From Tepidanaerobacter syntrophicus (GTDB lineage Bacteria; Bacillota; Thermosediminibacteria; Thermosediminibacterales; Tepidanaerobacteraceae): DNA of 64,000 nucleotides. Positions 32,330 through 36,019 of the stretch are shown piece by piece. Made by a program: the position numbers and the translations under genes. Where the stretch lies: positions 62,001 to 126,000 of the forward strand of contig NZ_DF977002.1 of NCBI RefSeq assembly GCF_001485475.2, written 5' to 3'. Under the pieces are notes generated by a model, which searched no databases, had not been told where the DNA came from, and was given only the letters and a program-made list of their open reading frames with translations. Every line of letters begins with the position of its first letter. Position 1 is the stretch's first letter.

Positions 32330-32410
32330 ACCAGCTAACACAGGGACGGTTCGAGACCGCTGAAAGTACACAGAGACCAGCTAACTACATGAACACAGAG
32401 ACCAGCTAAC
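32330..32410. repeat. Three copies of an 11-bp direct repeat beside the IS110 element
   Basis: GACCAGCTAAC occurs at 32329-32339, 32375-32385 and 32400-32410 (within about 1 bp). The second and third copies sit in a longer shared ACAGAGACCAGCTAACTA. The spacer between copies 1 and 2 contains GGGACGGTTCGAGACCG. The 312-bp gap 32219-32530 otherwise holds only AT-rich sequence and the dapB upstream region. Probably degenerate REP-like material next to the insertion element. Confidence 0.8.
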
Positions 32411-32530
32411 TAAAGTCAAGTCATTTTTTAAAAATAAATTCTAAGAAAAATAGGTATAACAAAGAAGCCTTTAAAAATAACAAACATTTTTACAAAGGCA
32501 AGGAAAAATATTCGCATTTAACATCATAAT

Positions 32531-33787
32531 TTAAGCAGCTTTTGAACGATAAAGCTTAATTTGTTCTTCAGGAGTAATCATAACAAACGGATGCTTGTTT
32601 TTAAGAACCGAAAATATTATTCTAACCAGCTTATTCATTACTGCGCCTAAAGCTTGTTTTTTAGGTTTAGACTTGATCTTCTTTTGGTAATAGTCATAGA
32701 TAACCGGATTAACGCATCTTGCTTTGGAATCTTTTCTAACGGATATAGTGGCCGCAATATAAAGAGCCTTGCGTATATAGGCAGAGCCCCTCTTGGTAAA
32801 TTTATTTTTAGTTCCAACAAAATTACCTGATTGTTTGACACTTGGGTCAATGCCGCAATAAGCCACCAATTGTTTAGCGTTATTAAACCGGCTGATATCG
32901 CCAACCTCGCTTACAATAACAGATGACAGCCTTTTACCAAAGCCCGGAATACTGCTGATTAAAGAAACCTCAGGTATGGTAATTGCAAGCCTTTGAATCA
33001 TCTCATCTAGCTCTGTAAGCTTATCGTTTAAATACTTTAAGTTTTGAGCGTAAATACAGATGACATCATACAGAGCACTTAAAGTTATTCCGGTTTCTTT
33101 AGCATCTTTTGCGCATTGAATAAGCAACTGGTACTTATCTAGAGCATATTTTAAAGACCTTCTGGAGCAAGAACGAATTAAGCTTGCAACATCCTCCTAA
33201 GGCGAGCTTAAAAGCGCATCCGGAGAAGAATATCTTGCAAGCAGTTCAACACAAGTCTTGGAAGAAATGTTAAAAATCCTTGTAAAGCCCGGCAAAACTT
33301 GATCAACAGCAGCTGTTAACTGATTTAGCATACTTATCCTTTGTTCCGACAATGAAAAGTAAGCCCTGGACAATACCTTAAGATTTGCTATAGAATCATC
33401 AAAGGGGCGATGCTGCTGTAAATCACAAACGAAATAAAGCCTGGCCAATTCTTCTGCATCTGCTTTATCATTTTTTACTTTTCGAATCGAAGAATTTTTG
33501 ATAGAATGAGATTGAAGTGGATTAACTAAAAATACTTCAAACTCATTCTTACCAAATAAGTGGACTAGGCGTGTAGAATAGTGTCCGGTGGATTCCAAGA
33601 CGATTACTGGCCTATTTTTAAAAGCCTTCTCCACCTTTTTTAATTTTTCTAAGACAAAATCCAATCCCTCTTTTGTGTTAAATGCTTTAAATGGCTCCAA
33701 ATATTTTTTGCCATCAGGAGAAAGAACACAGTAGTAGCAAAAATCTTTAGCTACATCGACACCAACTACAGGGTTAACATTATTCAT
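32531..33787 (-). pseudogene. IS110-family transposase interrupted by an in-frame TAG
   Basis: Read as one 418-codon frame this is a full-length IS110 transposase: N-terminal RuvC-like DEDD domain (VVGVDVAKDFCYY with first Asp, VIVLESTGHYS, KVKNDKADAEELARL) and C-terminal Tnp_20 domain (ISSIPGFGKRLSSVIVSEVG, then SGNFVGTKNKFTKRGSAYIRKAL with the candidate Ser nucleophile). A single TAG at 33197-33199 follows RYSSPDALLSSP. The codons after it (EDVASLIRSCSRRS...) stay in the same frame for 24 codons up to the part otherwise seen as a separate ORF. So it is a nonsense mutation, not a frameshift. The start is ATG 33787 with GGGGGTTGG upstream. Confidence 0.9.
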
Positions 33788-33963
33788 AAAAACCAACCCC
33801 CAAACAAATATTGTAGAAGGATTATCCATTTCGCTGCCAAAGTTTACAGCCTTGCACGTTAAGCGGGAATAAGCAAATCCCAACCAGCCAAAACGTATAT
33901 ACTTTTTGAAATGGATTAATAGTCTTTGTGCCGGGTATAGAAAAAATCTTCCCTGGGACGGTT
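33788..33963 (-). ncRNA. Candidate bridge-RNA region of the IS110 element
   Basis: About 176 nt of noncoding sequence lie between the presumed left end and the transposase ATG. In the IS110 group the left-end segment upstream of the transposase encodes the bridge RNA that pairs with target and donor DNA (established for IS621). The size fits. The minus strand shows possible short stems, for example around GGGATTTGCTTATTCCC. I could not fold it or identify guide loops, so this is a positional hypothesis only. Confidence 0.35.
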
Positions 33964-34060
33964 GCATTAATATCCTTCAAAAACATTATACTATACTAGA
34001 AAGCTAATATTCGGGTTTTGCTGCATTAAAAAATGGATAACCCTTCTATCTCATATTACA

Positions 34061-34107
34061 AGGGACGGTTCTTTTGTGTTGTCTGACAACACAAAAGAAC
34101 CGTCCCT
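34061..34107. repeat. Perfect 47-bp REP-like palindrome (GGGACGGTTC family)
   Basis: Two 23-bp arms, 34061-34083 and 34085-34107, are perfect reverse complements around a single central T. The outer part is AGGGACGGTTCTTTTGTG. The same GGGACGGTT core appears at 32343 and 33955, flanking the IS110 element. It lies 49 bp upstream of the promoter of the next gene and could fold into a long hairpin in any transcript crossing it. It resembles dispersed palindromes I know from clostridial genomes (not searched). Confidence 0.93.
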
Positions 34108-34155
34108 CTGTGCTATGAGTGCGATGCCTTTCTGCTATCTTGCGGAATTTTTCAT

Positions 34156-34185
34156 TTGACAAAAGAGGCGCCTGATGCCTATAAT
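34156..34185 (+). promoter_or_regulatory. SigA-type promoter of the MazG-like small gene
   Basis: Consensus TTGACA (34156-34161), 18-bp spacer and consensus TATAAT (34180-34185), 35 bp before the GTG start. Confidence 0.85.
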
Positions 34186-34220
34186 AGAAGAAAGATATAC
34201 TATTGCAAGGGGGAGTCCAA

Positions 34221-34616
34221 GTGAAAGATCTTGACTTGGAAGAATTTCAGAATACTGTCACAAATTGTTTAGTCAGACATAAAAGTATCATAGATGTGCT
34301 TGCAAAAATTGATGAAACTTCTGCAAGGGTTAACCGTGCCATATCCAAGTCAGTTACCAGCTGCGGTTGTATACAGATAAACGCAAAAAAGCAGCAGATC
34401 CCCGCTGACATAAGTCTTTGCGAATTGGCTTCATATATGGAAACTCATCTTGACGGGAAGCTTTGCGAAAACTGCAGAGAAGTAATCGAACAGGAAATAG
34501 GAAACCATCTTTTTTATATTGCTGCACTTTGTAATCTTTTAGACCTTAGCCTCAAAGATATTCTGTATGAGGAAAATGAAAAGTTATCAACATTAGGTAT
34601 ATACAATCTATCCTAA
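34221..34616 (+). CDS. Conserved Firmicutes protein resembling a degenerate MazG-type helical domain
   Basis: A 131-residue protein of unknown function. GTG at 34221 is preferred over an in-frame TTG at 34203, because AAGGGGGAG lies just before it. The N-terminal half is helical with TSCGC (Cys 48, 50) at the end. The C-terminal half reads CENCREVIEQEIGNHLFYIA (82-101), followed by ALCNLLDLSLKDIL. This resembles the EIGDxLxYLAxLAxxLGIDLEDIL helix pair of MazG-type NTP pyrophosphatases, but the metal-binding Asp of ExxD is Asn 95, so catalysis is doubtful. The cysteines C82/C85 and C48/C50 could bind metal. The gene has its own consensus promoter and a strong terminator shared with convergent radA. 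Family names such as DUF1573 have been attached to similar proteins because of the SCGC motif (from memory). Confidence 0.75.
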   Translation: MKDLDLEEFQNTVTNCLVRHKSIIDVLAKIDETSARVNRAISKSVTSCGCIQINAKKQQIPADISLCELASYMETHLDGKLCENCREVIEQEIGNHLFYIAALCNLLDLSLKDILYEENEKLSTLGIYNLS

Positions 34617-34644
34617 AAAGCCGACTGAGTTTGCTCGGCTTTTT
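34615..34644 (+). terminator. Bidirectional terminator between the MazG-like gene and radA
   Basis: AAAAAGCCGA and TCGGCTTTTT form a 10-bp stem with a 10-nt loop directly after the stop codon. On the plus strand it is followed by ATTTT. On the minus strand it also ends in TTTTT and lies 5 bp after the radA stop, so it can serve both genes. Confidence 0.9.
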
Positions 34645-34648
34645 ATTT

Positions 34649-35995
34649 TCATTCCAATCCTGCCTCTACAGCCTCTCGTATATTTTTTACTCCATCAATT
34701 TTTATTTCTACGATATTTGATATCTCAGCAGCGTTTTCACTGGGAATTATGGCTCTTGAAAATCCAAGTTTTGCTGCTTCTTTTATGCGTTTTTCCATAT
34801 GATTTACCGCTCTTACTTCTCCTGCAAGACCTACTTCGCCTATTATCACTGTATTTTCTGCCACGGGACGGTTTTTAAAGCTGGATGCTATAGCAAGAAC
34901 TATTGCCAAATCCGCTCCTGGTTCATTTATTTTTATGCCGCCGGCTACATTTACAAATATGTCTTGCTGTGCCAGTATAAATCCCAGCTTCTTTTCTAAA
35001 ACGGCAGTCAGGAGAACTGCTCGATTATAATCTATTCCTGAGGTCTGACGCCTTGGAAGGGTAAATCCTGATTTAGATACAAGGGCCTGAACTTCAACTA
35101 AAAGAGGCCTGGTTCCTTCTAAAATACATACAACAGCGGATCCGGGTGTACCGTTTGGCTTGCCTGAAAGCAAATACTTTGAAGGACTGTCCACCTCGGC
35201 AAGCCCTTTATCCCTCATTTCGAAGATACCTATTTCATTTGTGGAGCCGAAGCGATTCTTAACTGCTCTAAGCAACCTATAGGAATAATATCGCTCGCCT
35301 TCAAAATAGAGCACGCAATCTACCATGTGTTCAAGGAGTTTCGGACCCGCAAGGCTTCCCTCTTTAGTAACATGTCCTACAATAAATATGGCTGAACCCG
35401 TTTCCTTTGCAAGCCTTAGACATTTTACGGTAGCCTCTCTTATTTGGCTTACGCTTCCCGGCCCTGAGGAAATCTGGGGAAAGTATACCGTTTGAATTGA
35501 ATCGATAATCGCTATATCAGGTTTTATCTCGCTAATGACAGCCTCAATCTCATCCATATTATTTTCAGCCATTATATACATAGTGCCATTTTTAATTCCA
35601 AGTCTGTCAGCTCGAAGTTTTATTTGTTTTTCTGATTCTTCGCCCGATATATATAAAACTTTTCTGTTTTTACTTAAATTTCCGCAGATCTGCAGCATGA
35701 GAGTGGATTTTCCGATTCCCGGATCCCCGCCTACTAAAATGAGGCTTCCCGGAACAATCCCGCCTCCAAGCACTCGGTCCAGCTCGCCTATAGATGTCAG
35801 TATCCTTTCTTCCTCAGAATAAACAATATCATTTAGACTTACTGGCTGCTTGTAAGTTCTATGAGTGCTGCCGGCGGGAGATACTATCATCTCTTCTACA
35901 ATACTGTTCCAGCTGCTGCATTCCGGACACTTTCCCATCCATTTAGGTAAAACAGCACCGCACTGCTGACAAATAAAGCGCTTTTTCTCCTTCAA
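34649..35995 (-). CDS. radA: DNA repair protein RadA
   Basis: A 448-residue RadA/Sms, a RecA-like helicase for recombination branch migration. N-terminal zinc finger CQQC...CPEC (Cys 9, 12, 23, 26), Walker A GDPGIGKS (90-97), the RadA-specific KNRFG motif (246-250), and a C-terminal Lon-protease-like domain (about 275-448) without the catalytic Ser/Lys pair. TTG start at 35995 with GGAGGGAG upstream. It follows the ctsR-mcsA-mcsB-clpC operon, as is usual in Firmicutes, but a terminator separates them. Confidence 0.97.
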   Translation of the reverse strand: MKEKKRFICQQCGAVLPKWMGKCPECSSWNSIVEEMIVSPAGSTHRTYKQPVSLNDIVYSEEERILTSIGELDRVLGGGIVPGSLILVGGDPGIGKSTLMLQICGNLSKNRKVLYISGEESEKQIKLRADRLGIKNGTMYIMAENNMDEIEAVISEIKPDIAIIDSIQTVYFPQISSGPGSVSQIREATVKCLRLAKETGSAIFIVGHVTKEGSLAGPKLLEHMVDCVLYFEGERYYSYRLLRAVKNRFGSTNEIGIFEMRDKGLAEVDSPSKYLLSGKPNGTPGSAVVCILEGTRPLLVEVQALVSKSGFTLPRRQTSGIDYNRAVLLTAVLEKKLGFILAQQDIFVNVAGGIKINEPGADLAIVLAIASSFKNRPVAENTVIIGEVGLAGEVRAVNHMEKRIKEAAKLGFSRAIIPSENAAEISNIVEIKIDGVKNIREAVEAGLE

Positions 35996-36019
35996 ACTTC
36001 TCCCTCCAGCTTCTATTCA

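Follow-up and report, generated by a model that had tools for sequence, protein, structure and literature searches.

The closest described system is IS621 of E. coli, a member of the IS110 group. As set out in the available part of its description, IS621 carries a bridge RNA in its long left end, and its target is a REP (PMC11208160). It is long established that IS110-type elements insert into REPs, according to the accessible portions of two further sources (PMC1525189, PMC11187229). Here we analyzed an IS110-group element of Tepidanaerobacter syntrophicus, contained in a window of 64,000 nt (the whole stretch of DNA that was analyzed). Judging from sequence comparison, the segment at 33816–33978 on the minus strand is very probably the bridge RNA of this element, guiding it to the foot of a dispersed REP palindrome. 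The observed basis comprises a conserved fold, guide–flank covariation, the element ends, a restored empty target and a link to REP transposases. By analogy with IS621, the RNA would be produced and bound by the recombinase, and strand exchange would follow.

The element and its ends

Comparison of the two genomic copies and of relatives gave the following layout.

32401–34060, minus strand: IS110-group element, 1660 bp without the core dinucleotides
32531–33787, minus strand: IS110 transposase gene (PF01548, PF02371), with an in-frame TAG at 33197–33199
32401–32419, minus strand: right end, TTGACTTTAGTTAGCTGGT
32391–32400, minus strand: right core CT and right target (CTCTGTGTTC)
34061–34062, minus strand: left core dinucleotide CT, a probable assignment from flank comparison
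34061–34107, no strand assigned: REP palindrome with the element at its foot (arms 34061–34083 and 34085–34107; inverted repeat 23/23)

The transposase gene begins with an ATG at 33787–33785 (minus strand), and its product contains both domains (PF01548, 2.1e-32; PF02371, 2.3e-26). The recombinase matches the IS621 structure 8wt6 (8e-21), which is covered mainly in its C-terminal part. In the window the gene consists of two open pieces, split by the single in-frame TAG, whereas a second copy of the element, on another contig (locus L038), has an intact, open gene. The window copy, if mobile at all, would need the enzyme of the other copy. PF01548 has only two matches in the 2.43-Mb genome, and these are the two element copies. 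They are 99.65% identical over 1721 bp, with the likeness running to about 34112.

The original prediction had placed the element end at 33963, separated from the ATG by about 176 nt of noncoding sequence. The stretch is indeed noncoding, but 33963 as an end is ruled out by the 1721-bp likeness of the copies together with the comparison of left junctions. Aligning several copies, which had been proposed as a way to fix the ends, gave 32401–34060. The left end is thus base 34060, where the flanking palindrome starts, and the noncoding left end measures 273 nt upstream of the gene (33788–34060) versus 130 nt downstream (32401–32530). Each of the 31 left junctions tabulated is compatible with flanking DNA running up to a TGTA-type left end, although some need a shift of one or two bases. 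In relatives, readable left ends start with TGTA directly after the flanking DNA, and right ends read TTAGCTGGT then CT, with few exceptions. A DEDD transposase with a C-terminal Transposase_20 domain and a long noncoding left end upstream of its gene assign the element to the IS110 group; in IS1111 this region lies downstream of the gene.

Once the element is circular, TTGACT in the right end and TAATAT (34053–34058) stand 17 nt apart. These hexamers would be the putative –35 and –10 boxes of a circle-junction promoter. All 10 junctions that were typed combine TTGACT with a TA-rich hexamer at a distance of 17 nt, again a pair that only the circle brings together.

Relatives with 49–76% protein identity (best segments) occur in Sporomusa sp. 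KB1 (five copies), S. malonica, a Pelosinus MAG, a Bacillota MAG, G007 (a member of the window organism's own family) and G342. Across 398 genomes of the window's phylum, four have protein matches at E 1e-90 or better. Genomes G219 and G355 (loci L089 and L090) harbor cousins of about 40% protein identity, with the same right end.

Position and fold of the candidate bridge RNA

Two features lie in the noncoding left end.

33816–33978, minus strand: predicted bridge RNA, supported by alignment and consensus fold; the length of 163 nt, like the ends, is that of the covariance-model match
33985–33990, minus strand: TATAAT, a possible –10 box just upstream of the RNA, suggested by sequence

The RNA segment begins 15 nt beyond the originally proposed interval (33788–33963) and leaves 28 nt at the interval's other end uncovered. 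A consensus fold computed with RNAalifold from eight aligned relatives shows two domains, one 5' and one 3'; each contains an internal loop, that of the 5' domain being large. In this fold, 97.2% of cells are paired, and both partners change in 7 of the 44 pairs. Three of these compensated pairs belong to the six-pair stem closing the target loop. None of 500 shuffles reached the covariation score of the fold, and sliding the pair partners by one to three columns lowered pairing to 37–53%. The RNAalifold structure replaced one drawn by hand. Folds of single sequences, computed for the window RNA and the Sporomusa RNA, were unremarkable (z –1.71 and –0.85). The original prediction hinged on a two-loop fold, and a two-domain fold of this kind is common to all eight relatives.

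A search with covariance models had also been suggested. Rfam returned no bridge-RNA match at the gathering threshold. A model built from the eight relatives gives the window segment 166.7 bits, a score that is high by construction since the window is one of the eight training rows. Relatives outside the training set score up to 180.8 bits, and the distant cousins in G219 and G355, also outside it, 51–54 bits. In a sample of 300 genomes from the class to which Sporomusa sp. KB1 belongs, 13 contain matches; three of these (KB1, S. malonica and Pelosinus) had supplied training rows.

Candidate guides and their flanks

Within the predicted RNA, three segments are candidate guides.

33954–33964, minus strand: left target guide, CAACCGTCCCA; 8 of 9 non-core letters equal the left flank, and the last two letters fall at the core position
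33924–33932, minus strand: right target guide, GGCACAAAG; the last two letters complement the core CT
33883–33891, minus strand: probable left donor guide, TTGGCTGGT; differs from the right end TTAGCTGGT by a single, wobble-capable letter

The original prediction held that GGGACGGTT flanks the gene on both sides. The motif is present there, at 32343–32351, 33955–33963 and 34062–34070, but only the copies at 34062 and 32343 belong to flanking DNA. Because the true end is 34060, the copy at 33955–33963 lies inside the element, as the predicted left target guide. One presumed flanking copy is therefore the guide itself, which strengthens the case for a programmed bridge RNA.

In the window, the 5' side of the first loop reads AACCGTCCC, the same as the arm of the palindrome flanking the element. 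Across hosts, loop and flank change together, as seen with CACCTGTCCC in Pelosinus, TACGTCCC in the Bacillota MAG, AAACGTCCC in G606 and TACCTGTCCC in G445. Over 31 insertion sites, the left guide matches its own left flank at 7.06 of 9 positions, compared with 5.84 for shuffled pairs, and none of 20,000 shuffles was as high. This comparison allowed a one-place shift for own and shuffled pairs alike; without the shift, the values were 5.97 and 4.83, again with 0 of 20,000. Sites in one genome share a guide and are thus not independent. We therefore also took one site per distinct REP-type guide (n = 12), a set that guards only in part against this non-independence, and obtained 7.5 versus 6.1 shuffled (0 of 20,000).

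Matches of at least 7 of 9 occur at 25 of the 31 sites. The six others are G520b, G520e, G219, G355, G536 and Smal5. Left guides of G219 and G355 are quite different (CCTTACCCC and ACATTCACT), and the flanks there are of a non-REP type. At G520e (L160), the left guide ATCGAGTAGCC mismatches its own flank CCCCCGTCC while the remaining RNA is conserved; this guide has decayed or been re-programmed after insertion, it would seem. The Smal5 flank appears to resemble the end of a group II intron. A sequence of similar appearance, TTCTACTCGACC, lies directly against the left end in one IS110 copy and as its reverse complement within the RNA region in another (L098, L170).

The right guide, too, pairs better with its own flank than with shuffled ones. 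Pairing in the window amounts to 6 of 7 positions including wobble and 4 of 7 without. Averaged over 21 sites, own pairs reach 4.05 of 7 with wobble (3.20 shuffled; 0 of 20,000 as high) and 3.10 without (2.28 shuffled; 2 of 20,000). With one site per distinct right guide (n = 15), which again corrects in part for shared guides, 24 and 8 of 20,000 shuffles were as high. Fewer than 4 of 7 pairs form at 8 of the 21 sites, even with wobble. The left donor guide, in the second domain, agrees with the right end at 8 of 9 positions in the window; both sides are conserved, so no covariation can be read from them. The left core is CC or CT and the right core CT, which would be compatible with a CT donor core and a target core of either CC or CT. 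A search for loop segments fitting the sequence around GGGACGGTT and the core found a left guide that matches the left flank and a right guide that pairs with the right flank.

These comparisons also bear on a different account of the segment, as a 5' regulatory leader of the transposase mRNA whose match to the palindrome is incidental or came about by gene conversion from the flank. A precedent exists in ISPpu9, whose transposase is regulated by small RNAs and the mRNA 5' region, as reported in the available part of that study (PMC8450116). Yet both sides of the loop track the flanks across many hosts. In addition, the second domain fits the element's right end, and the overall geometry corresponds to the IS621 bridge RNA. 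We consider a leader of this kind very unlikely as the explanation, though the segment may have a regulatory role besides guiding.

For a bridge RNA, the proposed course of events is as follows. One internal loop would offer a left guide equal to the REP arm and a right guide for the DNA at the palindrome foot, and the second RNA domain would match the element's own right end. Together, the RNA and a DEDD/serine recombinase would hold the circular element against the REP. Recombination at the CT (or CC) dinucleotide would then leave the element at the hairpin foot, its left end towards the palindrome.

REP palindromes as probable targets

In the window, the element does sit at the hairpin foot with its left end towards the palindrome, which is left nearly whole. 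The palindrome half-site has 40 matches in the genome at no more than 3 mismatches (29 of them exact), versus 1 for the pattern read backwards. In this genome, a half-site precedes a gene for a REP-associated tyrosine transposase (Y1_Tnp; L178) by 66 nt. Such a gene in KB1 has the half-site on both sides (L078), and a variant stands upstream of one in G007 (L086). Of the three REP-transposase proteins, two fall slightly below the NCBIfam cut-off of 80, with scores of 73.8 and 76.1. Since the palindromes flank REP-associated tyrosine transposase genes, they are REPs. Together with the conserved fold and the covariation across hosts, the identity of left guide and palindrome arm bears out the idea that the guide loops are programmed for a REP-like palindrome.

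Rejoining the two flanks of the element gives GAACCGTCC-CT-CTGTGTTC, a 19-nt target. It is uninterrupted at 2 of 13 other palindrome loci of the genome, and its first 16 nt are present at 9 of the 13. Short fragments of the IS110 element adjoin REP palindromes in a patchwork, at window positions 32368–32387, at about 1215–1280 of L038, and elsewhere in the genome at G000:C6:223939-223975, G000:C8:287637-287686 and G000:C8:300679-300839. Among them are a right end in tandem together with the right target, a right end of 37 nt, 50 nt of transposase gene and a left end of 162 nt.

The site coincides with a break in synteny. In a comparison of window positions 34150–36012 with two related genomes, G001 and G002 (loci L122 and L123), DNA on the right side is colinear with both, whereas the left side, which here carries dapB, is not. 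In both genomes the DNA next to the right-side gene contains neither element nor palindrome. When the window's genome was searched with the DNA left of the site in these relatives (L123:1–1490), no match was returned, a result without evidential weight. Farther away, the window contains a cobalamin riboswitch (RF00174; 29561–29751, plus strand; 122.6 bits).

Such a break is what one might see had homologous recombination or rearrangement among repeats, rather than guided insertion, brought element and REP together, and the left palindrome is nearly the same at both genome copies. But the five copies in Sporomusa KB1 differ in both left and right flanks and have little in common beyond the guide-like stretch. 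Moreover, the palindrome varies across hosts and the guide varies with it. We see only a very slim chance that repeat recombination accounts for the association. The idea that the stretch is an N-terminal coding extension of the transposase, for which the frame is open to an ATG at 33967 and, in both copies of this genome (window and L038) as well as in L088, throughout the RNA, has practically no chance, being ruled out by closure of the frame before the RNA start in 16 of 19 readable loci (20 tried; the motif was not found in L076), with alignment length changes that are not multiples of three.

Relation to known systems

The guided-insertion reading provides a natural series of a dozen or more guide–target pairs in one IS110 lineage, with the guide shifting along with the host REP. 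This series can be used to ask how bridge RNAs are retargeted in nature, how large a core mismatch (CC versus CT) can be tolerated, and whether REPs act as landing sites that do no harm. The balance is even on whether the lineage, in several anaerobic hosts of Firmicutes type, is specialized on REPs that tyrosine transposases produce. If it were, the GTCCC part of the guide would be kept while the outer bases are re-programmed for each host REP variant, and two mobile systems, the REP plus its transposase and the bridge-RNA element, would co-evolve, the first providing the second with harmless landing sites. A literature search gave no description of this IS110 lineage among the matches listed, which is not proof of absence.

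REP-associated tyrosine transposases have been described (PMC2817692, in its available part); here such genes are flanked by the palindromes, and the REPs are the element's target whereas the transposases are not its engine. Specific insertion into REPs is shared with ISPpu9, ISPpu10 and ISPa11 (PMC1525189, PMC11187229). Those elements differ in having mainly Pseudomonas hosts and other REPs, and ISPa11, of the IS1111 group, further in carrying its RNA on the downstream side of the gene, so far as the accessible text of these sources goes. Likeness to IS621, as covered by the available part of its description, extends to an RNA upstream of the gene, two internal loops, a CT core, a junction promoter and a REP target. 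It extends also to the guides, the left one, on the 5' side, equaling the left target and the right one, on the 3' side, complementing the right target. Unlike in IS621, the recombinase is only distantly similar, the REP family and the hosts are others, and the left target core is often CC. RNA-guided insertion into REPs is already known, and the element described here would be another member, whose guides vary from host to host as the REPs do.
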